64,000 nt of DNA from NCBI GenBank assembly GCA_019155205.2, contig JAHNZQ020000004.1, forward strand, positions 626,658-690,657, in the 5' to 3' direction. Origin of the DNA: Gracilaria vermiculophylla. Lineage: Eukaryota; Rhodophyta; Florideophyceae; Gracilariales; Gracilariaceae. The notes beneath the pieces are model-generated. The model did no database searches. It was not told where the DNA came from and saw only the letters and a program-made list of their open reading frames with translations. Within the stretch, counting starts at the first letter, position 1. Each line of letters opens with the position of its first letter. Positions 3,742 through 64,000 of this stretch are shown piece after piece. The position numbers were made by a program, and so were the translations under genes.

Positions 3742-5571
3742 ATGAACCAGTTGTGTGTCCCAATCCCACAGGCTACGGACACACAGCAGATTCTCGAAGA
3801 TGTGTTTGCTTTGTGCAGAATTCCTTGGATTTTCGAGTTCATCTTCAACGCAGACCCTGCAGCCGATATTTCCATGTTGCTCGCCCCCGTCCAGAAGCGG
3901 CACGCACTGTCCGCAAGAATATTCGTCAACGCCACGGAGACATCCTCCCGCTACGCCCACTCCTTCGACTTCAACAAAGAGCTCATGTTCTACTCTATTC
4001 CGGCTTTCTCCGTCGAGCATATTACGGCCGGATTCTGCGTTGAACAGCTCGCCCGAAGCAAGCCCAAGGACGGCCTGCAATGTATTCGTTTCGTTCGCGA
4101 CGACACGAACGGCGTTTTCCTACACGTGAGTGAAAACCAACACACAGGCGTCACGGAGGTTGACTGCCTAACGCACAAGTCGTCCACTCGCCGAACACGA
4201 GTGCGCATGAAGTTTGACTGCCCTAGTTTGCGCAGAGTTTTGCGCACGTCAAAAGGAATCCTACACCCGAGTGACATATCTTCCTCTCTCATATACTACA
4301 ACGTCTCGGACGAGCGTCGAACTTGCCCCGTATGCGGTGACGCGACGGCCGGGGACTGCGCTTGCAAGTTACCGCTGCAACGGCCTTCCCATCCGTTCGA
4401 CTTTCGATTCGAAGCAAGCAACATGCAGTTGTACACGGGTTTTTATCAAGGAGCGACTGTAGTTCGGCTTTGTAGCGTCGGGCATGGTTCTATTAACGCC
4501 ACTTTGCAGTCTGGGAGCGTGATTCAAGGAGAACTGAACCCCGAAATCACTCAACGTCTGCACCGGATGGCCGTAACGGATCGGCTTGCAAAGGTGAAAG
4601 ATAACCTTTTTTCGCTGGTGATGCCTCACGGTCAGACGCCCGCCATCAACGTCGCTGCTCAGGAAGCAGAGGGAGATTTAGGAGTAAACATGACAGATAG
4701 CGTAGCAGTCAATGTGTTTGACATTAGCTCACTCGACGAGCATCGCTTGTCGGCCAATGAAATTGGCGACATGCCAGAGCCGCTAATGGCTGCACCGCAC
4801 GCGGCGGCAGAAGTGGAGAGAATGGCAGAGGTCGCTCACACGGATATGGAGCATAAAACATTCGCCGCCGGTGGTTTATTTGACGTAGGTGCAGATGTGA
4901 CGAACGGGGAGCTTGTCGACGCAGACACACTGATGGAAGCGCATGAAGTTCTTGGGGAAATGCGAAACGAATGCTCATCGACAGTGAACGAGAATGAAAG
5001 CACACACGGCGAGTACACACCACCACCGGAGAAAGACGGCGTTACAGAGTGTTGCACTTCTTCGGGGTCTTTGTCAAGCAAGCGCGGGATGGGGTGCGTG
5101 AATGATAAGGAGGTGGATGTCGACGGTGCACGCGTGCATGCTGGTAGGGGCGGTTGTGGGAACTTGAGACCGTTTGACGGACGATTTCACAAAGCGACAG
5201 ACGAAGATATGCAGGTGGCGGAGTACACTGCTATCAAGGAGAGCAACGAGAGCCCAGCGAACACTGATTCGCAGTTGAAACGCAAGAGACCGCGTATTAG
5301 AAGCGAAAACGAAGGCAGTAACGCTGAAGAGGACAAGCCACAGCGCGTGCTGACTGAGGAGGAGAAGACCGAGATTCGAAAGAAGCGAAATCGTGAAGCA
5401 GCTGCGCGTAGCAACTTGAAGCGGAAACTGAGGAACGAAAAAGTGCGGAAGGATCTGGCTAACCTGACGCAGAAAGCAGTGAAACTTCGAGTGCGAGAAA
5501 TGATGCTTCGCGACGAAAACACAAGATTACGGAACGAGGTGCGAAGAGCGAAATTGCTCGTGCCTCGATGA
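3742..5571 (+). CDS. bZIP-type regulator, paralog 1 (novel N-terminal module)
   Basis: 609 residues. The N-terminal module (about 15-290) has an aromatic helix (WIFEFIF, 29-35), FVRDD at 117-121, a putative zinc site CPVCG (195-199) followed by CAC (206-208), and an NM...GFYQG segment (227-237). A long acidic Ser/Thr-rich linker follows. The C-terminus is a basic leucine zipper: Asn550, Ala553, Ala554, Ser557, but Asn558 where the bZIP invariant Arg should be, then heptad positions Val568, Leu575, Leu582, Leu589, Leu596, ending 13 residues later. Likely a nuclear DNA-binding dimer; the N-terminal module has no family I recognise. First of three same-strand paralogs. The start is the first in-frame ATG and matches the N-terminal length of the relatives. 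Confidence 0.82.
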   Translation: MNQLCVPIPQATDTQQILEDVFALCRIPWIFEFIFNADPAADISMLLAPVQKRHALSARIFVNATETSSRYAHSFDFNKELMFYSIPAFSVEHITAGFCVEQLARSKPKDGLQCIRFVRDDTNGVFLHVSENQHTGVTEVDCLTHKSSTRRTRVRMKFDCPSLRRVLRTSKGILHPSDISSSLIYYNVSDERRTCPVCGDATAGDCACKLPLQRPSHPFDFRFEASNMQLYTGFYQGATVVRLCSVGHGSINATLQSGSVIQGELNPEITQRLHRMAVTDRLAKVKDNLFSLVMPHGQTPAINVAAQEAEGDLGVNMTDSVAVNVFDISSLDEHRLSANEIGDMPEPLMAAPHAAAEVERMAEVAHTDMEHKTFAAGGLFDVGADVTNGELVDADTLMEAHEVLGEMRNECSSTVNENESTHGEYTPPPEKDGVTECCTSSGSLSSKRGMGCVNDKEVDVDGARVHAGRGGCGNLRPFDGRFHKATDEDMQVAEYTAIKESNESPANTDSQLKRKRPRIRSENEGSNAEEDKPQRVLTEEEKTEIRKKRNREAAARSNLKRKLRNEKVRKDLANLTQKAVKLRVREMMLRDENTRLRNEVRRAKLLVPR

Positions 5572-5800
5572 CAAAATGGCGGTGGCGGGCGCGTTTTGGG
5601 TGCAGTCAGTGCTATTGAGGAGAAGACGTGTCCCAGCTCTCGACAGTTCCAGCCAAATTCAGGGTGAGAGTATGTAGAAAGACGGCAACTACTTGTAAAT
5701 TACAATCGGGAAGTTATTGCGATGCGATGAGGCGGGTCCATCCCCTAACATGTGCAGCACGATCTTTTGGTTGAGCGGGATGGTCTCTTACCGAACCGCG

Positions 5801-7037: not shown

Positions 7038-8345
7038 ATGAATAGTGTTGAGACCGAGACAGAGGTTGTTAATACGCTACACGAAATTTTTTCCATATGT
7101 CGCATGCCCGTTTCCCACCACTTCTTGCTTGGTTGCTACGACAACGCCGAGTCGCACGTCCTACATGACAGGCCAGAGAGCCTCAGCGCGCTGCTACGAG
7201 TGAGCGCCCAGGAAGTGATGCCCATACGATACGGACGAATCTTCGATCATTCACACAACATCAACTTTCGCTCAACGCCTGCTATCAATGTGGGAAATGT
7301 CGCTCTGGGATACTGCTCTGTGCATTACTTGGACGGCGATGGAAGACGACACTTACAAATGCGATACGCTCGCGACGATAGAAACGGCAAGTTTCTGGCT
7401 TTGACCGCCTCAACGCTGGGCATCGTCGAAGTGGAATTGGTGACGTTGTGTTCAGCACGGAGACGGACAAGGGTGAACGCCCGCTTCCAAGCATCAGCTT
7501 TTCGACAGACGTGCGAAACAATGGATCTGAGCAGCGCGGTGAAAGCCTTGCAGGTCATGTCCACCAATCGGCAATGGCGACAGTGTCCGGTGTGCGGGCT
7601 GGGCGGGGTGGTGAACCTGGACGACGGAAGCGGCGACTGTGCATGTGTGTTGCCGATGGTGGTAGCAACCGAAGCATTTGACTTTCGGCGTGATCGAGCC
7701 AACATGGCTTGCCAGGCTGGACGGTTCTACGGTGATTGCGTGATGCAGGTGTTTGAAGAGGGCAAGTTGACGATCGATGCGCGGCTGGCCACTGAAATGC
7801 TGACGACAAGCACGACGGATATCACGCAGTTGATGGGCGCGCGGCTGATGGGCAGCGGCAGTGATATGATGCTAGCGTCGCCGGGGCAGTGGACGGCGCC
7901 GGCGTGGGCGTCGACAGCGTGGGCATCACCGGCGTGGGCGACCGGTATGGTGGAGCAAGGAATGGAAACGATGATGCGCGCGGGGTCCCAGGCTGAGAGT
8001 CATTCGCAGTCGGCGATGAAATCGCAGGGACCGCGAGTCACGCAAGAGGCGATAATTGGCGAAGGAGAAGGGGTGATTGATGAGCGCGCGCGGAAAATTG
8101 AGATGAGGAAGGAACGCAATCGGCTTGCAGCGGCGAGAAGCAACGCCAAACGGAAAGAGCGCACAGACCAGTTGCGCGATGCGCTGCGGGAAGTCGTGGA
8201 GCGCGAGCAGATGTTACGCGAGAGAGAGAAGGAATTGCGCCGCGAGAATGTGAAACTGCGTCAGCTCGTTGGGCAAAGTCATTCTGAAGCAGAGGTGGCG
8301 GCGAGGCTGGCACATGTGGTCGGCAGGAAACATCAAATCGAATGA
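7038..8345 (+). CDS. bZIP-type regulator, paralog 2
   Basis: 435 residues from the chosen ATG at 7038; the frame is open from 6690 but the extra 116 residues lack family similarity. The N-terminal module includes YARDDRNGKFL, a CPVCG motif starting at Cys183 and CAC at 201-203, then NM...GRFYGD. The linker is short and contains Trp-Ala-Ser/Thr repeats (PAWAS, TAWAS, PAWAT). The C-terminal bZIP has Asn361, Ala364, Ala365, Ser368 and Asn369 in place of the conserved Arg, with zipper positions Leu, Val, Leu, Leu, Leu in exact 7-residue register. About 20 residues follow the last leucine-rich heptad, longer than in the relatives. Probably a nuclear DNA-binding protein; target unknown. The 232-bp gap to paralog 3 on the same strand is tight. 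Confidence 0.8.
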   Translation: MNSVETETEVVNTLHEIFSICRMPVSHHFLLGCYDNAESHVLHDRPESLSALLRVSAQEVMPIRYGRIFDHSHNINFRSTPAINVGNVALGYCSVHYLDGDGRRHLQMRYARDDRNGKFLALTASTLGIVEVELVTLCSARRRTRVNARFQASAFRQTCETMDLSSAVKALQVMSTNRQWRQCPVCGLGGVVNLDDGSGDCACVLPMVVATEAFDFRRDRANMACQAGRFYGDCVMQVFEEGKLTIDARLATEMLTTSTTDITQLMGARLMGSGSDMMLASPGQWTAPAWASTAWASPAWATGMVEQGMETMMRAGSQAESHSQSAMKSQGPRVTQEAIIGEGEGVIDERARKIEMRKERNRLAAARSNAKRKERTDQLRDALREVVEREQMLREREKELRRENVKLRQLVGQSHSEAEVAARLAHVVGRKHQIE

Positions 8346-8577: not shown

Positions 8578-10350
8578 ATGGCATCCTTTGCGCCCGTTCC
8601 TCAACCCACTGCCGCCGATGTCGCGAAGTTTCTCTCTCTAGTTCCGACATCGCACGCGCCCCCTCCTTCGCTCCGTGACGCGCTGGCCGAGCTGCTCGCC
8701 GCTTGCCGCTTTCCCGCCGCGCTCGACTTCCTCTTCAACCCCGAGGCCGACCCGTTGTCCATCCTCACAGCACCCTTCAACCGCCACAACGCCGTCGCCA
8801 GCTCCGTCTGCATCTCCGTGTCGGAGCCTGAACCCTCGCCCGCCTTGTCCCCTCACGACGCCGCCGAGTCGCTTTTCCTCGGCAACTACGCCTTCATCCC
8901 CGCCTTCAGTATTGCCGACATTCAACTTGGCTTCGGCATTCGCGAATGCAAAGCGACTCTCAATGGCGTTGCATTGGAGCACCCATGTTCGCCCACCCCC
9001 CGCACCAACATTTTTCGCTTCATTCGAAACGACAGTGCGCATGTACTCATCATTGTTCAAGACTTGGACGAGCCTCTCGTCAAGATTGACTACATGCGTC
9101 TCATCAGCGGGTGCATGCGTCGCCGCAACTATCTGGTAGTCACAAGATCCGGACTGCATGACTTACATCGGACGCACTCCGACTTTGAGCCATCACAACT
9201 TGCCCCCCATGTTGCTGTTTATCGCTCAAGCGTTGAGCGTCGCCCATGTCCCATTTGTGGCAACCAACCCAGCTCTGCGCCTTGTTTCTGCGTCATCAAC
9301 GTCCCAAAGTCTCGCCATTCTCTGGACTTCAGTATCATGGGACCGGGTATGAATGCTCACCTTGGCGATTACGAAGGCTCCGCAGTGCTTAACTTTGCTG
9401 TGAAAGGGCTCAACGCGGGTTCTGCTACGCTTGGAAGTAGAATGGTAATTTCGAAGGCTTCCGAAGAAGAGGACCTCATAGACCGACTTAGTCGTTGTGT
9501 TATTAGAGACGAGCTCTCAAAATCACCTGAAAACCCACTCAAGGACATCCTCCTTCGTCCATTTCAAATGCCCCAAACCCCCTCAAGGAACCAGCCTGCC
9601 TCGGAACTTGATACCTCAAGTTCGTCTATGAGCTCCGAACAATCTCTTTCTGTGTTACAAACAATTCCGGTTATGACTCCCATTATGAACCAGACGCCGG
9701 CATTGTTAGAGGCATTTTGCGATCCGAAAACACGCACTTCGAGCATACATAGCGATCCAATCCAGGGACGAAAAGTGACTCTGCCAAACCCGAGCGAGAT
9801 AGACATTTCGCAGAGTAATGCTTCGCTAAAGTTGCCCTCAATGACTCCTTCATTTTTTACGCCCGATGGCGAAAGCAACAAACTCTCATGGATATCCCCC
9901 GAGTTCAACAACGCCCTTGATGCGACCATGGAAAATCCTATAGCCCCTGAAGGTCTACAGTTTTCTTCAGGGTTTCCTATAAATGAAGACTCAGCTCTCA
10001 CAGATTTGATCGTTCAGCAAGCTGTGTCTGAATACCTCAAGGAAAATGCTGCAGTACCAACCAACGGCATGCAACAATCTGATCCTGTTCCTATTGCTCC
10101 TGCGAACCTAATTCCAGTGCCTGAAAGTTCCAAGTCCAAAGCAGAAGAAGAGAGGGAGCGGAGAGCCGAGTTGCGACGACAGCGAAATCGTGAATCGGCG
10201 CATCGTAGCAATATGAAGCGAAAACACAAGAATGATACTCTCAAAGCAGATTTGAAAAAGTGGCACGGAAAAGTGGCAGAATTACGCAGGCTGGAGGTAG
10301 TACTTCGTGAAGAAAATCTGAAGCTGAGAAGGATGCTATCTAATGACTGA
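8578..10350 (+). CDS. bZIP-type regulator, paralog 3
   Basis: 590 residues from the ATG at 8578; an earlier in-frame ATG at 8506 would add 24 basic, Leu-rich residues and is not excluded. The module has FRFIRNDSAHVL, a zinc-like site CPICG beginning at Cys224 with Cys236-x-Cys238 (CFC instead of CAC), and a GDYEG segment. The linker is Ser/Pro/Thr-rich. The bZIP region at the C-terminus: Asn537, Ser540 (for Ala), Ala541, Ser544, Asn545 for the invariant Arg; zipper positions Leu, Trp, Leu, Leu, Leu, ending about 10 residues after the last. The family seems to tolerate Trp or Glu at the second heptad, which could restrict dimer partners. Confidence 0.82.
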   Translation: MASFAPVPQPTAADVAKFLSLVPTSHAPPPSLRDALAELLAACRFPAALDFLFNPEADPLSILTAPFNRHNAVASSVCISVSEPEPSPALSPHDAAESLFLGNYAFIPAFSIADIQLGFGIRECKATLNGVALEHPCSPTPRTNIFRFIRNDSAHVLIIVQDLDEPLVKIDYMRLISGCMRRRNYLVVTRSGLHDLHRTHSDFEPSQLAPHVAVYRSSVERRPCPICGNQPSSAPCFCVINVPKSRHSLDFSIMGPGMNAHLGDYEGSAVLNFAVKGLNAGSATLGSRMVISKASEEEDLIDRLSRCVIRDELSKSPENPLKDILLRPFQMPQTPSRNQPASELDTSSSSMSSEQSLSVLQTIPVMTPIMNQTPALLEAFCDPKTRTSSIHSDPIQGRKVTLPNPSEIDISQSNASLKLPSMTPSFFTPDGESNKLSWISPEFNNALDATMENPIAPEGLQFSSGFPINEDSALTDLIVQQAVSEYLKENAAVPTNGMQQSDPVPIAPANLIPVPESSKSKAEEERERRAELRRQRNRESAHRSNMKRKHKNDTLKADLKKWHGKVAELRRLEVVLREENLKLRRMLSND

Positions 10351-13140: not shown

Positions 13141-14733
13141 TCATTTCTCCAACATTTGCCGCAGTCGCAAATTCTCTTCTCTCAACAGCATTTCTTTTGA
13201 ACGAAGCAAATCCACCTTTTCGCGCTCTGTCTTCAAACTCAGTTTCATCGAATCATTTAAAGCCTTCTTTCTCATATTGCTACGCTGAGCAGCAGCGCGA
13301 TTTTTCTCGCGACGCAAATCGGCTTTGAGTTTACGGATTAAATCTTTGTCACTGCTAGACGACGAGACAATTTGATTTTGATCGGAAGCTGTTTGCAATT
13401 CAGGCGAAAAAGATTGTGGCACATTACCCCCTTCCACCACGGAGTTGTCCTGAGATTGATCCGAGCTCCCCGGAGCACTGGTGTCCATATCTACAGCAGG
13501 TATCATCGGTTCAGAGCCAAACACATCCTGGAGTTCTGGTGCGACCTCAGGTACGACAGCCATTTGAGAAGTAGAATTTAGTTCGTTACCTGCTGATGGA
13601 ATCTCGAGCAGATCAGAAATCTCAACATTGAGATCCTCTGCAAACAATACAGGGGCTCTCGGTGGCTGGCTGGAGGGTTGTGAACTTCGTGTATCGGGCG
13701 GGTTACCATTCCCTAGTGTGATATCGATAAGATCCGTTGCCGTCGGGGGCAAATCGTCTTGTGACGTCGGCAGCGATGAACGGGGTTCTTGAATAAGAGC
13801 GTGTCGACTAATAGCCATGTTACGCAATGCGTTGATTAGTCCGTCCTCTGCACTGTGCGTAGAGCTGAACCTAGTTCCCAGTGCACCCATACACATGCCT
13901 TCATTTTCCCTGTACATTGAGACGTGTGAAACACCGTAGAATGAGCCTAGGCGGGATGACATATTGGCGATAAAGCTGGAGTGATCCAGCGGATGAAGGG
14001 GTTTCACTGTTTTAAGGAGACAATCACATTTGGAAGGCTTTGAGCCGCAATAAATACAGTCGCGATTCTCATATGAGGTTTGAAGCATTAGGAGTGTTGG
14101 AAAGACGGCATCAAAGTTACAAGAACCGCCTTTTGTGGCAGTGCGAAAGAGGGCCAACTTGGTACCGATGACGCAGCGAACCTGACGGGAAGGCGATAGG
14201 GTTTTGATGTACTCGAGGCGAATGCATTCAGTTTCAAAGCAGGAGACGATGAGCATGTATCTTTCATCATCGTTCTTGACAAATCGACATTCACCAAGTG
14301 CATTGCAGACGACTTGAGGGAAGTTCCAGGCGGCAGCAGGGTAGTATATCGCATTCTCAACGCCGATACCATAGGTGATGGAATTGCAGGTGAAAACCGG
14401 GGTGAGAAAGTATGCACTACCAAAGTGGTCTGACATGGAAGTCTCTGTTGGAGAAGTGGGATCAATTTTAGTTTCACGGGATGCACATGCGACGGACATG
14501 CGCTCGATATTTGGGTTCGTAAGGTACGACATTTGAAGCGGTTCCTCCGAGAACAGGAAGTTGTGAACGTCATCATTGTCAAAGATGCGAAGCATTTCAG
14601 AAAAGAGCTGGATGCTCATCATGAGGCTGGGCTTGCTGGTGTTAAGCAAAGACGCGAGCTGGTTGGCTTCCTGCTGCGTGGGAAATATGGCCTCGGAGGG
14701 CGGAAAGGGTGATGGTATGGATGTGGAGGCCAT
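13141..14733 (-). CDS. bZIP-type regulator, paralog 4
   Basis: 530 residues from the ATG at 14733; an upstream in-frame ATG at 14910 would add 59 Cys-rich residues of non-family character. The module contains VHNFLF (56-61), YGIGV, CRFVKNDDERYMLIV, then CIYCG (226-230; Pro of CPxCG replaced by Ile) with Cys236 and Cys238 (CDC), and an HPLD...NMSSRLGSFYG segment. Acidic Ser/Pro-rich linker. bZIP: Asn478, Ala481, Ala482, Ser485, Asn486 for the invariant Arg; heptad positions Met, Glu, Leu, Leu, Leu. It is the only member on the minus strand of this cluster and resembles paralog 8 (from 62865) more than its neighbours. Confidence 0.82.
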   Translation of the reverse strand: MASTSIPSPFPPSEAIFPTQQEANQLASLLNTSKPSLMMSIQLFSEMLRIFDNDDVHNFLFSEEPLQMSYLTNPNIERMSVACASRETKIDPTSPTETSMSDHFGSAYFLTPVFTCNSITYGIGVENAIYYPAAAWNFPQVVCNALGECRFVKNDDERYMLIVSCFETECIRLEYIKTLSPSRQVRCVIGTKLALFRTATKGGSCNFDAVFPTLLMLQTSYENRDCIYCGSKPSKCDCLLKTVKPLHPLDHSSFIANMSSRLGSFYGVSHVSMYRENEGMCMGALGTRFSSTHSAEDGLINALRNMAISRHALIQEPRSSLPTSQDDLPPTATDLIDITLGNGNPPDTRSSQPSSQPPRAPVLFAEDLNVEISDLLEIPSAGNELNSTSQMAVVPEVAPELQDVFGSEPMIPAVDMDTSAPGSSDQSQDNSVVEGGNVPQSFSPELQTASDQNQIVSSSSSDKDLIRKLKADLRREKNRAAAQRSNMRKKALNDSMKLSLKTEREKVDLLRSKEMLLREENLRLRQMLEK

Positions 14734-40338: not shown

Positions 40339-40369
<31 letters not shown>

Positions 40370-51001: not shown

Positions 51002-52268
51002 GGAAATATAGTTTGCTACTAGTTAGTTTCTAGAGATAAACCCATGGGCATTTGCAATAATTTTGCTGTTTACTGACGAAAAAGACAGCGAGCGATGAAT
51101 ACGGAGGAAGTGGGATTTAAACAGATTACGTCAAGTACGGGAATATAAAGAAAAGATTATGGTTTGACACCGCAGAAACCGCGAGTGATCCTCACCGCCA
51201 CTCGGACTCGTTTTCCTACAGCCAGCCACTGCGTGAAATCAAGGTGCTCCAGTGATGGCCTCCCCCGGTGCTTCCAACTTTGCACTAGCGTCAAGCCCCG
51301 CCTCCGCGGGACATGTCACCAGTACAGAGGCTTCCGTAGGGCAAGTCTTCTACGTGCACAAGAAAGGGCTTTCGATCCTGCTGAGGCATCCACATAACCA
51401 CACCTCCGCTTGGATGACAGCAGGACGCGACGCCCGCCGGTGGAAACGGGGCGACTCCGTGTTGTATATATTGGTGACTACATGGGCGACGCGGAGTGGG
51501 GGGTCGTGGGTTCGAGACTGTGCGGCGGTGTGTAAGTTTGGCGGACTTGTTTTGGCGGGGGTGCGCTGGGGGCGGCGGTTTGCGGGCGCGCAAATTGACG
51601 GCGGCGGTGGAGGAATGCGTGGCCAGCGAGTGAAAGCAGTGAAAGCAGCGCGGTGGCACCCAAATATCTACTGTCGTCACGCGGCCGCCCGTTCCACAGC
51701 ACGTCGAATAACGGTCGGCCACCAACGCAATATCGCTGCCTTCCACGTGTCCAGCGCCCTGCAGCGCGCGTGCTTAAAAACAAGGTGCAGCGCACGCGTG
51801 AGCGCGCCCGTGCCGCCTCTGCGCTTCACTTTGAAATACGCGCTGCCGCGCGTCTGCTACGCCCGCCAGCGCTTGACCGTCACCGCGCGCCCCACCCGCC
51901 CCACCCGCCCCCGCCCGCCCCGCCCGCTCCCTGCCTCGCCGCCCTCGCTTGTGCGTCTGCGTTTCGCGAGCAACTTTGCGCTTGGGAACGTTGTTTCTCG
52001 GCTCGTGCTGCCGCGCCTTTCGTTCGCGTCCGCTGCCGTTCGCCAACCTTCCCGTTCGAGCCGGGCCGCTCTTGCACAGCTTCCGTCCTTTCCGTCGCGC
52101 TTCGTCTCGCGTCCGCCCCCTGCAACCTTTCTTTGCCTCAAAGTCATCCCCCGCCCCCCAAATTCGCCCCTCTGCCCCCAGCTCGCCTCGCTTCCCCCTC
52201 CCCCCTCCTCCCCCGCTGCCTCTGTTTTGGCGCCCTACCACTGTCATTCTCGCTCCGGCGATGTTCTC
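51002..52268. other. Intergenic and leader of F-box/SPOC copy 3
   Basis: 1.27 kb. The F-box/SPOC frame stays open upstream to 51252, but the extra 339 residues are Arg/Ala/Pro-rich and lack similarity to copy 1. Strong pyrimidine-rich tract 52100-52230 just before the chosen start. Antisense ORFs here are shadows. Confidence 0.45.
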
Positions 52269-53378
52269 ATGACGCTTCGTCGCCAAACACCGACAGAGCA
52301 TCAACAACAAACCTCCCAGTCCCATCCGTCGAACCCAAGAAAGAGACCAGCCTCAATGTTGTCTCCAAAGCCTCAGCCCGGAGAGCTCGAGATGCTCATC
52401 CTCCCGGAACCCGCCGTGTACCGTGTCCGCGTTGAACTCTCGGCCCCGCCTTCGCCAAACTACAAGCGGCAGCGCGCCGCCGAGAGCGACGCCAGCTCAT
52501 CGGTCAAAGACATTGACGAGCCTGACCACTTTCCGCCCGATTCCGTGCCCGCCCTCGTGCAGCAGCTGCACACCCTTCTCAATTACATCGCCGCCAAACC
52601 CGCTCTTCACCACGCCTCTGCTAGTTTTCTGCGCGACTCGCTTCGCACCTTGCTGTTGCAGAACGAGAAAGCGGCCGTCGACGCCCTCAACGCGGCTGCA
52701 AAGGCGCACCGACACGCGTTTTTGGCCGGGGTGGCGCCGCCCCAACAGCTTTTCTCCAATTTGCCGGACGAAATCACCAAGCACATATTCACTTTTCTCG
52801 ACGGTAAGAATCTCGCTAGGTGCCGAGAAGTGTGTGCCAAATGGAATGCGTTTGCGAGTTGTGAGACGCAATGGAAGAGCTTGGTGACTGGACAATGGCG
52901 CTCACTGCAGTCGGACCTTCACGCGTGGAAGCTGGTGGACAGCACTGTGGACCCGCACTCGCCCAACCGATGGAGAATGATCTACCCGAAGGCGTCACGT
53001 ATTCCCAAGTGGCGCTGCCGACTGCAGAAGACCGGCCGCTTTATGTGCAACCTGGTGGCGCACCAAATCGGGGGCTCGGCCATTGGAGAGTCTGGGCTGC
53101 CCGAGGTTCTTGTGGTTGAGAGACGCTTCAATCTGCAGCACTTGCAGGCGTTTGTGATGGCCGAAGCGACGGTTCTGTACTTTGAACCGGAATCGGAGCA
53201 GGACCGCTCGGGGTACGAGGATTTCATCGAGTATTTAATCAAGCGTACCCGCGCCGGACTGGCGCTTGATGATCAGCAGCGCTTTATTTTCATTCCACCG
53301 TGTGAATATACTCGAAGCAATGTGAAGTATGAGGGTCGGAGTCTACTGGGTGTGGTGCAAAACGCATATCCGCCATAA
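52269..53378 (+). CDS. F-box protein with C-terminal SPOC domain, copy 3
   Basis: 369 residues from the ATG at 52269, chosen because NPRKRPAS at about 22-29 aligns with RKRPAS of copy 1. Order: short Pro/Gln N-terminus, helical segment 92-150 (DSVPALVQQL, ASASFLRDSLRTLLLQN), F-box at about 164-210 (LPDEITKHIFTFLDGKNLAR, VCAKWNAFASCETQWKSL), SPOC at 247-366 (KWRCRLQKTGRFMCNLVAH, VLVVERRFN, LYFEPESEQD, YLIKRTRAGLAL, FIFIPPC, LLGVVQNAY). Very similar to copy 1 over the helical segment and SPOC, so these two are recent paralogs although on opposite strands 13 kb apart. Likely an SCF substrate receptor with a phosphopeptide-reading SPOC; inferred. Confidence 0.82.
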   Translation: MTLRRQTPTEHQQQTSQSHPSNPRKRPASMLSPKPQPGELEMLILPEPAVYRVRVELSAPPSPNYKRQRAAESDASSSVKDIDEPDHFPPDSVPALVQQLHTLLNYIAAKPALHHASASFLRDSLRTLLLQNEKAAVDALNAAAKAHRHAFLAGVAPPQQLFSNLPDEITKHIFTFLDGKNLARCREVCAKWNAFASCETQWKSLVTGQWRSLQSDLHAWKLVDSTVDPHSPNRWRMIYPKASRIPKWRCRLQKTGRFMCNLVAHQIGGSAIGESGLPEVLVVERRFNLQHLQAFVMAEATVLYFEPESEQDRSGYEDFIEYLIKRTRAGLALDDQQRFIFIPPCEYTRSNVKYEGRSLLGVVQNAYPP

Positions 53379-54545
53379 CCGCGTGCTTTGCGTCGGGTGC
53401 GTTTCTTTCGACGCAGGTGACTTTAGCTCACATTCTGACTGGAAACGCAGTCTTGGAGATAGCTTTGGATTAGTTTTGTTATATCACTGGCGATGGGACA
53501 ATAGGGGCACGCTTTCTGAGCCTCTGGCGCGCGGTGGCTGTTATGCCGCGCACTGGATTTTTATCCTTTTTGGCGCTAACGATGTGCATCGCGGTACGGA
53601 ACTCGGTACACTGTGGTCTCCTGCACTGGAACAGGAGAGCCGGCGTGCATCGCGCCGACACCGCTATGCATTGTGCTGAAAGTAAAAGAACGATGTCTCG
53701 TCGCAGTTTAAGCTGTATACTGTTATTTGGCGCCGACACTGCATGTGGGTGCCGACGCTATGACCGAATTGCACGACAGCCACGCCGAACTCGAGACGGG
53801 GACGCGCCGGCGGGACAACAAGCGTTCCGCGCACGGTGGAAACGCGTCGCGAGAGCGCCGCGGGTCCGCAGTGCGCAGCCGACGAGCGGCGGGAGAGAGA
53901 AGGCGCGCGCGCGCGCGTCGAGGGCGGGGGGGGGCGGTTGGAGGGTGGGGGGGGTTGGAGGGGGGGGGGTGGTTTGAAGTCGCTGTGGGGGCAAATTGCG
54001 AAAAAGTTTTGCGCGCGGCGCTGGCTGCGCGCGGACGGTGGGGGGGCCGGGGCGCGGGGGGCGTGGGGTGGGGGCGCGTCTGCTGCCAGCTGGAAGGGGA
54101 GGGGCGTGGCGTGTCGTACCGAGGCGCGTTGCGAGAGGGCGGCGCGCGGCATGCGGCGGCGCGCCGGCGTCTTGGGCACGCGCGCACGCGCGCACGCGCG
54201 CACCGGCGCGCCGACGCGTTGATTGACGAGTCGCGGAACGGGCGTGCGCGCGCGCGCGTGGCCACGCGGCGCCGTGGCCACGCGGCGCCGTGGCCACGTC
54301 AGCCGCGCGGCGGCGCGCGCCGCACTGCGCGCCCGACCGTCGCACGCGCCTCCTTGTGCGCCAGCGCCAATGGCGGCGCCGCGCGCGCGCCAGCTTGTCG
54401 GCGAGCGCCAATGGCGGCGCCGCGCACGCGCCGTTCTTCGCCGCGAACGCGCGCGCGTATCTATCGCGCCCGCCGCGCCGCCAGCGCGACGCGCGCCGCG
54501 CGCTCCGCGCCCAGCGCCCAGCGCCCCGCGCCCCGCGCCGCCGCC
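53379..54545. other. GC-rich promoter region of bZIP paralog 5
   Basis: 1.17 kb. From 53880 on it is almost pure G/C with G-runs (53930-54070). GTGGCCAC occurs three times spaced by GCGGCGCC (54258-54297), and GCCAATGGCGGCGCC occurs twice (about 54366 and 54410). The frame of paralog 5 is open upstream to 53727 but the extension is low complexity and not family-like. Confidence 0.45.
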
Positions 54546-56033
54546 ATGCCGCAGGCAGAGGACTGCATCCCGCGCGCGTTCGCACTGCTGCGCAACCAGT
54601 GGGCGGCCGACTTCCTCTTCTCCGACAACGATGAGCTGATGCACGGCGCGTTGATTGCGTCGCAAAAGGTGTTTGGCACGTTTTCCGTCGTCACGGACCC
54701 CACGCTGCCGGTGCGCTCGGACCACGACCTCGACGAGGCTGGCACCATGCTGTTCGCGTCCGCGTTCAACAGGGGCCTGCACACGGCGGGCTATGAAATC
54801 TGCCACAGGAAGAAGAGCGTGCAGGCTGTGAGCATCAACACGCGTTACATTGCGAAAACGATTCGCGACGACCAAACCGGGCAGCTGTTCTCCGTGGCCA
54901 GACACGCGCACCTGCGCGTCACCGAGGTGTCGTTCTGCCACCCGCAAACGCCGGGGTACCGTCAACAGGGCATTCTCATGTTTCGCACGGACATGTTTGA
55001 TGCGGCGATTGACAGGGCACGGCGCGCAAACGGCGCCGTTGACTTGCAGGCGGTCAAGCAGGCGCTGGTGTTCAGTTTCCTGTCCACTGAGTGGCGGCAA
55101 TGCCCAAAGTGCGGCAGTTACAACTCGGAGGTGTGCGGCTGCCCGGTGGAGAGCCGTCTCAAGATGGGGCCGCACGACTTTGGCCACGACCGCGACAGCC
55201 TGCTGCTGCACTCGGGCGCGTACAGCGGAGTTGTGGATGTTGCCGTGCACGCGATGCCGGACGCGCCGCCGCTGATTCGCAGAAGCGTGCGATCTTCCTC
55301 TGTGGTGGGCGTGTTTGTGGACGAGGCGGAGTCGCATTCCATGTGCACGTGGGCAATGTCGACGCTGTACGATAAATACGGCGTGGGGATGGCACGCATG
55401 AGCGTTTGGCGCGGTGCGGACAGCGATGGGGTGGGCGACGCGGGCGGGCAAGTGGTGAGCGCTGCGGGCGGGCATGTGGTGAGCGCCTCGGGCGGCAGCA
55501 GTGCGTGCGTGGATGCGGAGGAGGCGCTGGCGTTGTTTGCGGGGTGGGACGCTGCTGGGGACGACGACGGCGGCGGCGGGCAGTGGGACGGTGCGGAGCT
55601 GCAGCGTTTGCTGAGGTGGTTTGAGGAGGAGAGCGGCGCAGGTGGGGCGCCTGAAGCGCTGCGCGCGGTGTTACACGAGGAGGCGCGCGCGGGGCATGCG
55701 CCGCACGCGGGCGTGGGCGCGGCACACGTGGCGGGCGCGGCACACGTGGCGGACGCGGCACGTCGCGCGGTGCGCATTGCGCCGGCGCGCGGCGGCGAAG
55801 GCGCGGCGCAGCGCGGCGGCGCCGACGCCAACCAGGTGCGCGCCGAGCGGCGCAAGGCGCGCAACCGCGCCAGCGCGCAGCGCAGCAACGCGCGCAAGAA
55901 GGCGGCGCTGCAGCGGCTGCGCGACGAGCTGGGCGCGCTGCGTGCGCGCGAGCGCGAGCTGCGCCGCGCCGAGCGCGGCGCGCGCGAGCGCAATGCGCGC
56001 CTCCGCGAGCTGCTGGCCGCCGCGCCGCGCTAA
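54546..56033 (+). CDS. bZIP-type regulator, paralog 5
   Basis: 495 residues from the ATG at 54546 (CCGCCATGC context), where family similarity begins. Module: QWAADFLF (18-25), AKTIRDDQTGQLFSV, WRQCPKCG with Cys186/Cys189 and CGC 197-199, then a GAYSG segment. Linker contains Gly/Val/Ser repeats (GGQVVSAAGG, GGHVVSASGG) and Ala/His repeats. C-terminal bZIP: Asn440, Ser443, Ala444, Ser447, Asn448 for the invariant Arg; heptad positions Leu, Leu, Leu, Ala, Leu. Codons are almost exclusively G/C-ending, unlike paralogs 1-4. Clusters with paralogs 6 and 7 by its tight N-terminal start and the WRQC context. Confidence 0.8.
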   Translation: MPQAEDCIPRAFALLRNQWAADFLFSDNDELMHGALIASQKVFGTFSVVTDPTLPVRSDHDLDEAGTMLFASAFNRGLHTAGYEICHRKKSVQAVSINTRYIAKTIRDDQTGQLFSVARHAHLRVTEVSFCHPQTPGYRQQGILMFRTDMFDAAIDRARRANGAVDLQAVKQALVFSFLSTEWRQCPKCGSYNSEVCGCPVESRLKMGPHDFGHDRDSLLLHSGAYSGVVDVAVHAMPDAPPLIRRSVRSSSVVGVFVDEAESHSMCTWAMSTLYDKYGVGMARMSVWRGADSDGVGDAGGQVVSAAGGHVVSASGGSSACVDAEEALALFAGWDAAGDDDGGGGQWDGAELQRLLRWFEEESGAGGAPEALRAVLHEEARAGHAPHAGVGAAHVAGAAHVADAARRAVRIAPARGGEGAAQRGGADANQVRAERRKARNRASAQRSNARKKAALQRLRDELGALRARERELRRAERGARERNARLRELLAAAPR

Positions 56034-56921
<888 letters not shown>

Positions 56922-56940
56922 CCGCCGCGCGCTGCCGTAC

Positions 56941-58313
56941 ATGCTCCCCCCGCCCGACCGCATGAGAGACGCCGCCGACGCGTCGCTGCACACCGCCCTG
57001 TCCTGCCTCCGCCATGACTGGGTGTTCGACTTTGTGTTCGGCGACCACCGCCACCTGCTGCGCCGCGCCCTGCTGCACAGCGCCCATCTCGGCGGCTCGT
57101 ACCTCGTGCAGACGCACGCCGCCGCCGGCGCCCCGCTCCCGCCCCCGCCCGCCCGCGTCTGCGAGAGCGGCACCATGCTCTTCATGAGCGCCGCCACGCG
57201 CGGCGCCCGATCCGTCGGTTTCGAGGTCGTGCGCCGCAACCACTCGCTGTCGCCGCTGCACCCCAACGACCTGTACCTCTCGCGCATCGTGCGCGACGAC
57301 GACACCGGCGTGCTGCTCTCCGTCGCCGACCTGCCCGACACCGGCATGATCCAGCTGTCGTACTGCAATATCGTCAGCCCGCGCCTGCGCGAGCACGCCT
57401 TTGTGCTGCTGCGCAAGGACCGCTTTCTGCGCATGGTGCGCCCCTCGGCGGGCCGCTTCGACCCCGACGCGTGCAGCCGCGCCATGGCGTACCGCCTGTT
57501 CGGCACCGAGTGGCGCCAGTGCGCGCAGTGCGCGCAGTGCGCCAGCGCCGACCCGGCCGCGTGCGCCTGCCGCGTGCGCCCGCTGCCCGCGCGCAGCGCC
57601 CTGCACCCGGCGCGCGAGATGGAAAACATGCTGGCGCACGCCGGCTCGCACGCGGGCGTTGCGCAAGTGTCCATGTTCGCCACCGACAGCGGCGAGCAGA
57701 TCTTCGCCGCCACCGTCGAGTCGCGCTCGGAGATCAGCGTGCTCGCCGACGCCGACGAGGAGCAGCGGCTCGCCGCGTGGGCCATGCGCCTCGCCGCGCC
57801 GCCCAGCCCGCTGCCGCTGCTGCGCGTGGCCGCGCCCGACGCCGGCGGCGCGCTGCCGTCGCACGACGTGCTGTTCGGCAGGGCCTGCATGTCGATGGAC
57901 CTCGGCGACGCCGCCGCCCTCTTCGAAGACGTGCTGAACTCGCCGCGCGCGCCGCTCGGCGCCGACGGCGCCGACGGCGCGCCCAACCTCGGCACGCTGC
58001 TGGACGACGTGGTGGGCGTCGACGTCAGCGGCGGCGCGCGCGCGCGCGAACGCCACTGCGCGCGCTCGCCGCGCAGCCCGCTGCTGTCCGCCGACGACGG
58101 CGAGCTCGGCGGCGGCCACGACGGCGACGGCGCGATTTCGCTGCTGCTGGAGCGCGCCAGCGGCGACGGCGACGCGCCGCGCGATGAATGGGCCAGCTGG
58201 CGCGCGCACCCTGCGGCTGGCGAGGCCGCGCCGCGCTGGGCTGGCGCGAAACGCTGGCCGCCGCCGCACCGCGTCGACAGTGGGCGCAGCAACGAGCGCG
58301 AGAGCGGTGCGGC

Positions 58314-58350
<37 letters not shown>

Positions 58351-58632
58351 GCGGCGGCGACCGACACGGCCAGCGCGCGGCGCGCGGTGCGCATCGCGCC
58401 GGCGCCGTACAGCGTGCGCAGCGAGCGCGTGGACGCGACGCAGCGCAAGCTGGAGCTGAGAAAGGCGCGCAATCGGGCGAGCGCGCAGCGCAGCAACCTG
58501 AGGAAGAAGCTGGCGCTGCAGAAGCTCAAGGACGAGCTGCGGCGCATGAGCCAGCGCGAGCGCGACCTGCGGCGCAGGGAGCGGCTGCTGCGCGAGCACA
58601 ACCTGCGGCTGCGCGCCGCAGCGGGCGCATGA
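56941..58632 (+). CDS. bZIP-type regulator, paralog 6
   Basis: 563 residues; a second Met at residue 8 is a possible start. Module: HDWVFDFVF (25-33), SRIVRDDDTGVLLSV (114-128), then an altered zinc site WRQCAQCAQC (191-200) with CAC 208-210. The CPxCG motif appears replaced by a duplicated Cys-Ala-Gln unit, leaving Cys194, Cys197, Cys200, Cys208, Cys210. Linker rich in Ala/Gly/Asp with an Ala run. bZIP: Asn511, Ser514, Ala515, Ser518, Asn519 for the invariant Arg; heptad positions Leu, Met, Leu, Leu, Leu. Extreme GC at third positions. Preceded by the 102-nt C run. Confidence 0.82.
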
Positions 58633-59642
58633 CAGCGCCGCGCCCAGCGCTCGACACCATCTAAGCCAACAGTTGACTGTGTAATGTGTCGGAAAGCTAA
58701 TTTGACTTGGAACTTGACGAGTGAGGCCAACCTCATTGGCGTTGTTCTGCAGTACTGATGTTCGATACGTCTTATGAAAGCTGGGTGTGTTGGCTTTTTT
58801 GTGTACCAAATGTTGGCTTGTAACATAGAAAGCAAAACGTCGTGGTACGTGAAACAGTGAAGCGCCCCAAATGGTACTGTTTTTGCACAGAGGTTTAATG
58901 TGCGGCGCGTGCCAAGCTCGTGTGCACTGACGGCACCAGCGCGCACAGAGCCGTTGATTAGGCTAAGCCGCTCGGTCCCACCTCGAGCATTTCAAGCCAT
59001 GAGATCAACAAAGGACGATGCATCGACTTACTTGGCGACCGCATCGCTCGCTGCATGTGCCAACTGTAGAAGCACAGTTGAGAGCGCGCTTCTGAGCGGC
59101 GCGAGAAGCAGCAATCTTGCAATACACATCCCCTCTGCGCGGGGGAACCTACGGGGGGGCACAGGCGCGAACTAAGAGCGTCCCCGCCATCTTTGCCTGC
59201 GCGAGACGAAAACACCGCACCGCGCACCTCTTTCGACTCATTGTCGGAGCTACCGAACAGCTGCGCCGCCAACACTGCCGCAGTTACTTTTACTGTGAAC
59301 AATTGGTGCGCGCAAGCCACGCGCGTCGTCGTCTCTTCCCGCGTCGTCTCTTCCCGCGTGGCCGCGTGGCCGCGTGGCCGCAGCGTGGCCGCGAGGCCGC
59401 GAGGCGCCGCGTGGCCGCGAGACCGCGGGTCCGCGAGGCCGCGTGGGGGCGCCGGCTCCTCGAAGCGGTGCCAGCGCCATTATGGAGGCGAGCTTCGCGG
59501 CCACTGGCTGTTCCCGCCAGCGCAGCGCGCGTGCTGCAGGCGCGTGGCGCGTGCTGACTATGCGCATCGCCGCCGTTGATAACGCCGCCGCCTCGCCGCG
59601 CGCCGCGCTGGCCGCCCCTCCGCCCCGACGCGCGCCTCTCCC

Positions 59643-59688
<46 letters not shown>

Positions 59689-59723
59689 ACAAACGAGCTG
59701 CCGCACCGCCCCCTCCCCGCCCC
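58633..59723. other. Intergenic upstream of bZIP paralog 7
   Basis: 1.1 kb. Composition drops to balanced at 58650-58900, then rises. GTGGCCGC-type repeats at 59350-59440 and the CGCCCAC repeat at 59644-59685. No supported ORF. Confidence 0.45.
59644..59685. repeat. Six tandem copies of CGCCCAC
   Basis: A perfect 7-bp repeat unit, six copies, ending 38 bp before the start codon of bZIP paralog 7. A likely length-variable element of the leader or core promoter. Confidence 0.9.
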
Positions 59724-61270
59724 ATGCAGCCGCCCGCCGCTGCCAGTGGGGCGCAGCTTCCCGACGTCGAGCACCTGCTGCAAGTGCTGCGCCACGACTG
59801 GGTGTGGCGCTTCTTCTTCGAGTCCGACCACCTGCACGCCGACATGTTCGCGCTCGCCGCGCAGGACCGCTTCTCCATGATGTTCGACCTGACCGTGCAG
59901 ACCGAGCACGGCAGCGACGCGCACGCCAACTCGTACGCCGTGCGCGCGCGCCACCGCGCCCTCATCCTGCGCTCCTTCTCCAACGGGCCCATCACGGTGG
60001 GCTTTGGCGTGTGCGACCGCGTCACGTCGTCGCTGTCGCTCGCGTGCCGCCAGCGCTACTTTGGCAAGGTGGCGCGCGACGACTCGCGCGCCGTCGTGTA
60101 CTTCATCGCCTCCGACCGCGCGCTCAACTGGCTCGAGATCAGCACGTACTCCATGCTGAGCCGCGCCACGCGCGCGCACGCCTTCTCCATCTTCCGCCGC
60201 GACCGCTTCATGAGCGCCGTGCAGTCGCTGCGCCAGCCGCCGTTCTGCACCGCCGCCGTGCGCGCGTCGCTGCTGTACCTGTACGAGGCGCTGGAGACGC
60301 GGCCGTGCGGCGGGTGCGGCGGCGCCGCCGCGCCGCGCGCGTGCGCGTGCGAGCTGCCGCTGCGCACCAAGAGGCACGCGCGCGACACGGCGGCCGACGT
60401 GTGCAACATGCGCCTGTACACGGGCACGTTCCGCGGCGCCGCCTCGCTCACGCTGTGCTCCGACGCGTCGCCCGTGTTCTGCAGCACGTACCGCTCCTCG
60501 TCGCGCGTGCACCTGCAGCACGCGGACGCGCACAGCAAGCGCGAGCTCGTCGAGTGGGCGATGGGCTACATTGTGCGCGCCGCCTCGGTGAGCCCGCTGC
60601 AGCTGGTGATGGCCGAGACGGCGCGCATGAAGTGCCGCCTCGTCACGCCCACCGACACGTTCCTGCTGGCGTCCATGGCCGAGTGGGTGCTGTCCTCGCC
60701 GCCGCGCGCGCACGGCGTGCACACGTTGCCGGACGGCGCGCACACGTTGCCAGACGGCGTGCACACGTTGCCAGACGGCGCGCACACGTTGACAGACGGC
60801 GTTGCCACGTGCGCGGACGGCGTGGCCACGTGCGCGGACGGCGTGCACACGTGCGCGGACGGCGCCACGGCGAGCGCGGGCGCGCGCGGCGCCTTCGCGG
60901 CTGGCGCCGCTGCGCTGGACGCGCTGTGGCAGCACGCGCAGCTGCAGCGGCTGCTGGGCGACGAGCAGTGCGCGCTGCCGAGCAACGTGCTGCTGAGCGA
61001 CGGCGACGGCGACGGCGCCGACGCGGCGGCGCTGGATGCGTGCGCGCTGGCGGCGCGCGCGCTCGAGGACGGGCCGCGGGCGCGGCGCGGCGGCTGCGCG
61101 CTTTCGGCGGCGTGCTCGCGGGGCGGGAGCGGGAGCGCGAGCGCGAGCGCGAGCGCGAGCGCAAGCGTGAGTGCGAACGCGAACGCGAACGCGAACGCGA
61201 GCGCGAGCGAGGGCGCGGGGCGGGCGCGGGCGCGGCTGGCGGTTCTGGCGCCGGCGCGCGCGGCGCAGAG

Positions 61271-61303
<33 letters not shown>

Positions 61304-61529
61304 GGAGGCGGCCAAGGCGCAGATGGAGGAGGAGCGCAGAAAGCGGATTGAAGGGCGCAAGGCGAGGAACCGCGAGAGCGCGCAGCGGAGCAACGCGCGG
61401 AAGAAGCGGCAGCTGCAGCAGCTCAAGGAGGAGGTTGAGGCGGCGGGGGCCAGGGAGGCGTGGCTGCGCGCGAAGGAGAGGCGGCTGCGAGAGGAGAACA
61501 TGCGGCTGCGGGCGGCGGTGATGCGGTGA
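59724..61529 (+). CDS. bZIP-type regulator, paralog 7
   Basis: 601 residues. Module: HDWVWRFFFES (24-34), GFGV (93-96), FGKVARDDSRAVVYF (113-127), CGGCG at 195-199 (Pro lost from CPxCG) with CAC 207-209, NMRLYTGTFRG. The linker carries seven tandem 7-residue repeats (GVHTLPD type, from 60714) and an Ala/Ser/Asn hexanucleotide tract (61130-61210). bZIP: Asn549, Ser552, Ala553, Ser556, Asn557 for the invariant Arg; heptad positions Leu, Ala, Leu, Leu, Leu, ending 9 residues later. Start ATG is the first of the frame and aligns with paralogs 5 and 6. Confidence 0.82.
60714..60860 (+). repeat. Seven tandem 21-bp coding repeats
   Basis: Seven in-frame copies of a 21-bp unit (GGCGTGCACACGTTGCCGGAC-like) encoding GVHTLPD, GAHTLPD and GVATCAD variants within paralog 7. 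Copies 5-7 contain CACGTG. Units 1-4 and 5-7 form two subtypes, indicating stepwise expansion. Confidence 0.9.
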
Positions 61530-62864
61530 GCGCGCGCGGGGCCGTGCTTGACAGCACATTTTTGGTGATGGGCGCGCTGCACGACAGCGCGCAAACGTGT
61601 GGCGAGCTGCCGGCGCTGGCGGCGTCAGAGCTCGTGAGGCGCACGCGCTGCGGCAAGCGCCGAGTGTGAGAGGAACGTTAGGACTTGTTGTGGGGGGCGG
61701 CGCGCGTCAGGCGGCGGGGACCGTTTCACAGCGCGCAGCTGACGGCTGGCAGCTGACGGCAGGCCGCCGCCTCTCGCACTGCGCCTTTGACACGCTGCAT
61801 GTTTGTACTCGCTCTCGAGCTCGGCGCTGAGCGGCGCCTCGCGCACGCGAGGCGCCAGCAGCGCGCGCGCCCGAAGCTGAGTCAGCAGCGCCGCGTACCG
61901 CGCGCGCGCCCTCGCTGCCGCCGCGCCGCGACGCGGCTCTCCGCGCGCGCGCCGCGCGCGTGCCGCCTCGCGCGCCGCGCCAGCGAGGCCTCCTGCCGCG
62001 CGCGCGCGCGCCGCGCTGTGGAACGCGCGCGCGCGCGCCGCCGCCGCCGCCGCCGCCGCCGCCGTCGCCGCGCACGCCCCCAAGCACGTCAGCACCAACG
62101 GCGCGCCGCCGTGCCGCCGCGCCACGCCCGCTCGCATATGCCGCTCGTTGGGGCTTCGTCATCCCCCCTGTCGTCGCGATGCTTCATCTCGTCGCTAATT
62201 CACCTGCCGCGTGCTGCGCTCGCTCCAACCTCACGCGCGCCTTGCCGTTTGCCCGCGCCGCCCGCCCTCGTGCTCGAGAAACTAACGGCACACCGCGCCG
62301 CTGGCGCGCGCTCACCGCCGCCGCCGCGCGTGCGCTGCCTTCCACCCGTGCGCTCGCGCCTGGCAGTGCCGCCGTCGTCGCAAAACGCGCCCGCGCTCTC
62401 GTTGCTCTTTCCGTGCCGTGCCGCGCCGCTCCGCGTTGCAGTCCGTCCCCGCGCGCTGCTTCCACCAATGCCCTTCGCGCTGCGCATCGCCCTTGGCGCT
62501 CTCCGCCCCGCTCCCCCTCAACCTCCACGCGCAACGCCGCACGTCACGCAGAGCGTCTGCGCGCCCCACAGCCGCAGCGCTCTCGCCACCAACATGCCGC
62601 GCCGCCGCGTGCACACCGCGAATCGCCGCCGTGGCGACGAGCGCCACGAGACCGACCAGCGCATTTTAATATTCCGTCGCCACTGGCGCGCGCCGCCGCC
62701 GCCGCAGCGCCGCGCGCGTGCCATCCGCACTGCACCCACATAAAAGCCGCGCCAGCGCGGCAACCCACTGACTACAACACGACACGGCGCCGCAACCTCC
62801 CGCTCTCTCACCTTCCCTTCCCCCCCCCCCCCTCCCCCTACCTACCTCCTTCTACTCGCCGCCC
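61530..62864. other. GC-rich intergenic upstream of bZIP paralog 8
   Basis: 1.3 kb. Highly GC-rich with GCC/CGC repeats at 62037-62070. A TATA-like CATAAAAGC lies at about 62738 and a 13-nt C run at about 62820-62832 close to the start codon. Several long ORFs on both strands are shadows. Confidence 0.4.
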
Positions 62865-64000
62865 ATGCACCGCCGCCTCGCCCGCCCCATGTCCCCTGCC
62901 GAACTGCTGCCCCCCACTGCGGAAGAAGCGCGCGCACTGGCCTCGCTCGCATTGCACCCCCACCTCGCCTCCTACCAAACCATTCTTTCGCTCCAGGGCG
63001 TTCTCGACTTCCTCTCCCAAACTGATGTCTTCGACTTCCTCTTCACCGAGCAGCCGGTGCACGTCCGTCACATCGCCATGACCAATGTGCTGTCCAAGTC
63101 CATCGCCGGCCACTTCACCAAGACCCGCATCGAACCGGGAAACTGCTCCAACGACTCGCTTTCGCACCACGCCTCCGGCTCGTATCTGCTCATGCCCGCC
63201 TTCACCGTCAACCACACAACGTACGGCTTTGGCACCCACACCTACTTCCACACCTTTTGTCAAACCGCTTCGCGCCCGCGTCCGCCCGCCTTTTACACCG
63301 CCGAGTCCAAGTTTGTCAAGAACGAGGCCAGTGGAATTCTGCTCAACGTCATCGACTCGGAGCAGTCCGGCATCGTCACCGTCGAGTACTCGCACATGGC
63401 CGCCTTCACCCGCCTGTCCCGCTCCTCCGCCACCTTCAACCGCAACAAGTTCCGCTCCGTCATCAAGTCGGGCGCCCTCGACATGCCGCGCGTCCTGTCG
63501 TGCATATCCGAGTTTTACACCGCCGACCAGTACCGCCGCTGCCCGCTGTGCGCCTGCGTCTACAAAGTGTGCGCCTGCGTCCCGCGCCCTGCGCACCCGC
63601 GCCACCCGTTCGACACCACCGCCTTCCTGCAGAACATGTCCCTGCGCTTCGGCAAGTTTGAGGGCGTCGCAGGCGTCACGTGCTACGAGGACGGCAAGCA
63701 CAGCCGAAAAGCCCTGCTCGGGTGCCGCTACGCCATCGACGGCCACCTCAACATTTCAAAGGTCGAGCAGATGCGCTCCATGGCCATTGACAAGCTCATG
63801 GGCCGCTCCAGCCCGCGCGACATCTTTGTCGCCCCCGAAATGCCCGCATCCAAACCGAGCCCGCCGCCGTACGCCGACGAGCAGCCCGGCGGCGACATTC
63901 TGTTCGAGCTGTTGTCCAAGCAAAACGAGAGGAGGATGGCAATGCGCGCTGGCTGCGACGGCGACCCCGCGCGTTTGCCGGCCCCCGCGCACCCGGCCGC
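62865..64000 (+). CDS. bZIP-type regulator, paralog 8 (truncated by window edge)
   Basis: 378 residues visible, open to the window end; the bZIP region would lie beyond. ATG at 62865 (a second at 62889 is possible). Module: VFDFLFTEQP (55-64), SGSYLLMPAFTVNHTTYGFG, SKFVKNEASGILLNV, RRCPLCAC with Cys226/Cys229 and CAC 236-238, then HPFDTTAFLQNMSLRFGKF. Over the whole module it matches paralog 4 (13141-14733) better than its neighbours 5-7, including the HPxD...NMSxRxGxF segment. Assignment as bZIP rests on the module, since the zipper is not in the window. Confidence 0.75.
   Translation, partial: MHRRLARPMSPAELLPPTAEEARALASLALHPHLASYQTILSLQGVLDFLSQTDVFDFLFTEQPVHVRHIAMTNVLSKSIAGHFTKTRIEPGNCSNDSLSHHASGSYLLMPAFTVNHTTYGFGTHTYFHTFCQTASRPRPPAFYTAESKFVKNEASGILLNVIDSEQSGIVTVEYSHMAAFTRLSRSSATFNRNKFRSVIKSGALDMPRVLSCISEFYTADQYRRCPLCACVYKVCACVPRPAHPRHPFDTTAFLQNMSLRFGKFEGVAGVTCYEDGKHSRKALLGCRYAIDGHLNISKVEQMRSMAIDKLMGRSSPRDIFVAPEMPASKPSPPPYADEQPGGDILFELLSKQNERRMAMRAGCDGDPARLPAPAHPA

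Follow-up and report, generated by a model that had tools for sequence, protein, structure and literature searches.

The question raised by this locus is what kind of protein results when a basic leucine zipper (bZIP) is joined to a module that resembles no described domain. The window analyzed here, a stretch of 64,000 nucleotides from contig JAHNZQ020000004.1 (hereafter C17) of the red alga Gracilaria vermiculophylla, contains eight open reading frames (ORFs; genes a to h) which a first-pass annotation had placed in one family, with a shared N-terminal module of about 280 residues and a C-terminal bZIP. The account we favor, at a probability of roughly 0.6, is that they are bZIP transcription factors of a class found in red algae, combining a beta-barrel regulatory domain with an altered DNA readout.

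The grouping of the eight ORFs into one family is well founded. In all-against-all BLASTP, each gene used as the query gave a module-only match in another member (E ≤ 4.1e-22), and the eight-module alignment has invariant columns at M1, F33, G97, R193, C195, C198, C206, C208, G233, and G237 (gene a numbering). All eight share the layout of module, variable linker, and bZIP: the seven complete members terminate in a bZIP, as had been annotated, and so does the eighth when read beyond the window edge. The motifs first used to describe the module hold only approximately, as just the first G of "GFG/GYG" is invariant (GFC, GYC, GIG, and GFE are also present), the acidic motif actually takes the form [RK]xx[RK][DN][DE], and the "NM" and Y/F of the last motif vary in genes c, e, and f. 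At 7038 and 54546, the annotated start is an ATG inside a longer ORF (6723 and 53760, respectively), and it is at this ATG that the module begins. The G+C content at third codon positions (GC3) is 0.84–0.96 in genes e to h (for h, the part inside the window) versus 0.50–0.64 in a to d, and long opposite-strand ORFs lie at 53664–55475, 56334–58826, and 59250–61559, where the surrounding GC is 0.66–0.73; we take these to be by-products of the high GC3. A chance resemblance among GC-rich ORFs was ruled out because the modules of e to h match those of a to d and each other in BLASTP and keep the invariant residues.

No described domain had been recognized in the module, and at the level of sequence this stands. 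Pfam identified no domain in the module of the window members and no LOV match, and neither NCBIfam (built for bacteria and archaea) nor a PDB sequence search returned anything for it; a known, widespread domain, named beforehand as a result that would speak against the proposal, was not encountered. At the fold level, however, the module is predicted to be a barrel and not a wholly unknown shape. The modules of gene a (AlphaFold2; predicted local distance difference test score [pLDDT] 88.5, predicted template modeling score [pTM] 0.87) and gene d (AlphaFold; pLDDT 88.2, pTM 0.88) are ~20% identical, and the suggested structure prediction returned the same order of elements in these two divergent members: N-terminal helices, a ten-stranded antiparallel barrel with the C-x2-C...C-x-C loop between strands 8 and 9, and a C-terminal helix. 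The ten strands follow in order in both models, the closure of the barrel being judged from barrel matches alone. The soluble look-alikes are calycin-type barrels, namely nitrobindin (2fr2, 2a13), CpeS (4tq2), and AttH, and the fold scores point to a common architecture only, singling out no family among them. Outer-membrane barrels dominate the fold-match lists; we set aside an interpretation as a membrane porin on the grounds of the bZIP and the Cys site, and not of a coordinate test. In a viral structure library, one match was obtained at E ≤ 0.001, to an uncharacterized phage protein.

Conservation was assessed over 44 modules (56 proteins minus 12, namely our own ORFs k, l, m, and n and the eight truncated models P0022–P0029). 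The C-x2-C...C-x-C site, at which zinc is probably bound by the four cysteines, is present in 44/44, as is the adjacent R193, in rows that were picked by this motif, R193 included. Other columns are also kept (G97 and G237 in 44, G233 in 43, E191 and D220 in 42, and R116, P87, F89, G124, and M228 in 41 each). No His column is invariant in the 44 modules, and the only His kept in at least 30 rows is H217 (40/44), located in a loop; the alignment therefore lends no support to a nitrobindin-like haem site. In seven of the ten strands, conservation is higher on the face that is also more hydrophobic (faces being assigned from residue alternation, not coordinates), and strand 7 is rich in Arg, with a mean hydropathy of −3.07 on one face.

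The fusion of this module to a bZIP tail was confirmed, with an intact heptad register in the members, and the tail has a feature that the first-pass annotation did not remark on: not one member retains the otherwise invariant basic-region Arg. GCN4-like bZIPs have the basic-region pattern N-x7-R, with Lys in place of Arg in some plants. A bZIP basic region with in-register leucine heptads occurs in 54 of 56 proteins sampled (14 of our own and 42 from searches), all except our ORF n_280943 and Chondrus model P0020, and the final residue of the pattern is Asn in 53 of these, His in one, and Arg in none. The heptad places at +10, +17, +24, +31, and +38 from this final residue are hydrophobic in most rows, exceptions being a polar +17 (Glu, Thr, Asn, or Gln) in some members and, at +10, Thr in P0016 and Gln and Lys in k and l. 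This spacing fits GCN4; therefore, the Asn truly stands in the place of the Arg. The remainder of the basic region is also kept in the 54 rows (the first Asn, with Ala at +4 and Ser at +7 from it, and dense Arg/Lys), a conservation that is partly built in since the finder required Asn, a small residue at +4, S/C/Y/F/T at +7, and nine Arg/Lys. In the zipper, +35 is Asn in 54/54, and the core a position at +28 is Glu in 52/54 and Lys or Arg in k and l, which are divergent C17 paralogues. Glu facing Glu is unfavorable in a homodimer, and this difference at +28 suggests that Glu-type and Lys/Arg-type zippers may be preferred heterodimer partners.

Pfam bZIP_1 and bZIP_2 scored the window members under their curated cut-offs or gave no match, with the heptad register intact; member i passes the bZIP_2 cut-off of 22.3 in the six-frame search (22.4) and fails as a protein (19.8). 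Across the genome, 44 places match the two Pfam bZIP models, 5 from the family, 2 of Asn type on contigs C9 and C1, and 37 others; the others comprise 32 with the Arg, 1 with Leu, and 4 in which a basic region could not be read. The Leu occurs in the sequence NRESAMKSL (C14:1897840; L072). The two N-x7-N bZIPs outside C17 (L070, C9:1260676; L071, C1:2378766) gave no match when the module was searched for with a, d, and f. According to the available part of PMC4736632, no more than two bZIP residues, this Arg among them, are conserved most strongly across eukaryotes, and just three departures at the two key positions are given among 896 bZIPs from 49 genomes, the Asn described here not being one of them.

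The family had been described as locally expanded, which is borne out on C17, but it is not only local. Three protein searches yielded 42 proteins, and the organisms named among the orthologues (Agarophyton chilense, Gracilaria domingensis, Gracilariopsis chorda, and Chondrus crispus) are all florideophytes; the searches with A1 and A4 each scored the best 7991 candidates by shared words, a scope that does not extend to the distribution outside red algae or in Bangiophyceae. Some of these proteins are already named bZIP in databases. The orthologues of gene d (5 proteins, 57–80% identical) were missed in the first protein search, though d was in the query alignment, and were found by a separate search. 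Compared with 11 orthologues, gene a is 60–94% identical in the module, 15–63% in the linker, and 46–100% in the bZIP; for gene d and four orthologues, the ranges are 57–80%, 23–42%, and 82–94%. Because module identity is well above linker identity in all 15 comparisons (11 of a and 4 of d), module and bZIP can both be argued to be functional units. P0020, the Chondrus crispus gene model of a gene a orthologue, lacks the bZIP, possibly through an annotation fault that hides it from bZIP surveys.

In a tree of the 44 modules, gene a (the alpha paralogue) groups with 21 others (support 92/97), d with P0030–P0034 (99/97), and e, f, and g together (98/96), while gene b falls on a long branch inside the group P0035–P0042 (89/94); according to a warning of the tool, long branches may be misplaced. 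For six of the eight proteins P0035–P0042 (beta), the host contig has the same size as that of an alpha protein (70452, 10531, 13376, 23154, 75039, and 25156). Taking equal size as a proxy for a shared contig, one of which is only 10.5 kb long, the alpha-beta pair therefore appears to be kept in linkage, like genes a and b here.

Within the genome, module matches in six-frame searches with members a, d, f, k, and j were all on C17; the best candidates were scored, so counts are lower bounds. This one contig carries at least 10 module genes and a divergent branch (k, l, and n) without the Cys motif, whose joint profile nevertheless aligns with the module profile (hhalign probability 94.2, E 1.1e-7; 20/20 column-shuffled controls ≤ 1.5). 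Three more divergent family pieces, one with internal stops, lie at C17:284841–286145 and may be a decayed or intron-bearing copy.

How such proteins might work can be outlined as follows. A fast-evolving linker would connect the barrel to a bZIP that dimerizes in the normal register, binds DNA in the nucleus, and reads it through Asn instead of the near-invariant Arg; with Arg replaced by Asn, the expected half-site would be unlike canonical bZIP sites. The barrel would be an input/regulatory or partner-binding domain, with the binding of a small molecule or partner changing activity or dimerization, and the Cys knuckle may stabilize its long loop. A far more specific version, in which these are ancient red algal ligand-gated factors with (i) a calycin-like barrel receptor bearing a zinc knuckle, (ii) an Asn bZIP reading a non-canonical site, (iii) an alpha/beta pair linked across florideophytes, (iv) a one-chromosome expansion in Gracilariales, and (v) heterodimers of Glu-type with Lys/Arg-type zippers, seems to us quite unlikely to hold in full.

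The same observations could be read in other ways. The module may contact nucleic acid or a chromatin protein through its Cys site, in an ordinary lineage-specific expansion of transcription factors with no small ligand. The Arg-rich strand 7 and the position of Arg193 by the Cys site would fit this, but the coincidence of the conserved with the hydrophobic face in most strands fits the packing of a core or pocket, and we regard this account as possible without being probable. A sensor of tetrapyrroles (haem or bilin), as a seaweed counterpart of THAP4, is brought to mind by the nitrobindin-type and CpeS lyase barrels among the soluble fold matches and by the precedent of THAP4, in which a haem barrel and a DNA-binding domain are joined in one protein (PMC6275384, as far as available). 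We nevertheless consider it very unlikely: the His at residue 217 is missing in 4/44 modules, the fold scores single out neither family, the module gave no Pfam match to nitrobindin, and a search of 32 members with hmmscan (E up to 1) gave matches to 16 Pfam families in all, with no CpeS model among them at that sensitivity.

A different kind of alternative concerns the bZIP itself. If the change from Arg to Asn abolishes DNA binding, the family could consist of dominant-negative or dimer-only bZIPs that titrate other bZIPs, with the barrel as a partner platform. The prevalent Glu at the core a position, which disfavors homodimers, would suit such a role, as would the loss of so conserved a residue (PMC4736632, available part). 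However, the rest of the basic region is kept, with the above caveat on the finder, and the Asn is constant in 53/54 and does not drift; titration alone thus appears unlikely.

Among known systems, the nearest working analogy to the favored barrel-bZIP class is THAP4, which joins a DNA-binding domain to a nitrobindin barrel (PMC6275384, available part); there, however, the DNA-binding domain is a zinc finger and not a bZIP, and the barrel is C-terminal, while the seaweed module lacks both the invariant His and a Pfam match. Aureochromes are likewise algal bZIPs with an added signal-input domain (PMC9416419, available part), but theirs is a LOV photoreceptor domain and they belong to stramenopiles. 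CpeS, an S-type phycobiliprotein lyase, is an enzyme, and its fold match is no better than that of other barrels. Yeast Yap8 shows a natural Arg-to-Asn change in its basic region, its Asn31 corresponding to an Arg of Yap1 (available part of PMC3865217); as a precedent for the same substitution it was set aside because the position differs, Yap8 having Leu26 where Yap1 has Asn, so that Asn31 would stand five residues after and not eight. Closer at hand, PMC11533322 states, in the part available, an invariable N-X7-R/N motif for the bZIPs of Neopyropia yezoensis; thus, the Asn substitution at this place in a red alga is already in print, in passing, while that part of the paper mentions neither a Cys site nor a barrel at the N terminus. 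For Neoporphyra haitanensis, N-X7-R is given (PMC10696790, available part). Our searches of the open-access literature gave no account of the module among the matches listed and the passages available. The proteins themselves are in databases, and they make up a variant within the bZIPs, not a kind apart. The Neopyropia survey could assign no more than a small fraction of red algal bZIPs to plant groups, and it describes functional studies as lacking (same part of PMC11533322). Little is known of the regulators through which multicellular red algae respond to signals, and a conserved factor that brings its own candidate input domain and a changed contact to DNA offers a concrete starting place, as well as a natural test of the role of Asn at a bZIP residue nearly invariant in eukaryotes.

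Coordinates of the gene family in the window and elsewhere on contig C17 (window numbering unless prefixed C17).
Feature	Position	Strand	Description	Basis	GC3
Window	C17:626658-690657		Genome of 44.84 Mb in 27 contigs		
Gene a (alpha paralogue)	3742..5571	+	Module 1-290, linker 291-535, bZIP about 536-600	ORF	
Gene a module	3742..4641	+	Predicted ten-stranded beta-barrel, N-terminal helices, C-terminal helix	AlphaFold2	
Gene a C195-x2-C198-x7-C206-x-C208 site	4324..4365	+	Loop between strands 8 and 9; probable zinc site	Alignments, model	
Gene a bZIP	5347..5541	+	Basic region NREAAARSN (N-x7-N), heptads V-L-L-L-L		
Gene b	7038..8345	+	Fast-evolving; groups with second conserved paralogue (beta)	Tree	
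Gene c	8578..10350	+	Module and N-x7-N bZIP		
Gene d	13141..14733	-	Module and N-x7-N bZIP; orthologues in Agarophyton, Gracilaria, Gracilariopsis		
Gene e	54546..56033	+	Module and N-x7-N bZIP; within ORF 53760-56033		0.84
Gene f	56941..58632	+	Module and N-x7-N bZIP		0.95
Gene g	59724..61529	+	Module and N-x7-N bZIP		0.96
Gene h	62865..64000	+	Cut by window edge; extends to window 64409 (C17:691066); N-x7-H bZIP at end		
Member i (ninth, full)	C17:762579-764213			Six-frame search	0.39
Member j (tenth)	C17:178590-180893			Six-frame search	0.92
Piece m	C17 near 183391		Bears bZIP; GC-rich surroundings like j	Six-frame search	0.96
Divergent group	C17 278-286 kb		k 278127, l 283653, n 280943 (n without bZIP)		

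The two gene groups of the window are separated by ordinary genes, encoding an EF-hand_13 protein, a HAD hydrolase, a haem peroxidase, a Sel1-repeat protein, an RFC subunit, an SLX1-like GIY-YIG protein, an Rpb3-like subunit, a GTPase, and two proteins with F-box and SPOC domains. The latter two, an F-box-like plus SPOC combination, are at window 37891–39321 (−; Pfam E 3.2e-14 and 3.4e-10) and 51255–53378 (+; 7.4e-11 and 8.4e-12); in a literature search on this combination, "SPOC domain" occurred in none of the papers among the matches listed. A glycosyltransferase 61 (L009:4081–6675) and a protein kinase (L010:4987–6243) flank the window on either side. A kinase and a glycosyltransferase are among the conserved male genes of Gracilaria in PMC12502185. 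With regard to a possible connection of the family to the sex chromosomes of Gracilaria, the main text of that paper, as available, contains no mention of a bZIP or zipper; nor does the main text of PMC10853006, on diurnal rhythms in Gracilariopsis, mention bZIPs.

The base composition changes abruptly along C17, with GC rising from ~0.48 to 0.59–0.73 at window 36001–44000 and 52001–64000 and at C17:176001–186000 (0.73 in L066), and GC3 reaching 0.96. GC-biased gene conversion is a possible cause of these jumps. The fast-evolving members e, g, h, and j lie in GC-rich parts, and b, c, and i, which are also long-branched, lie outside them.
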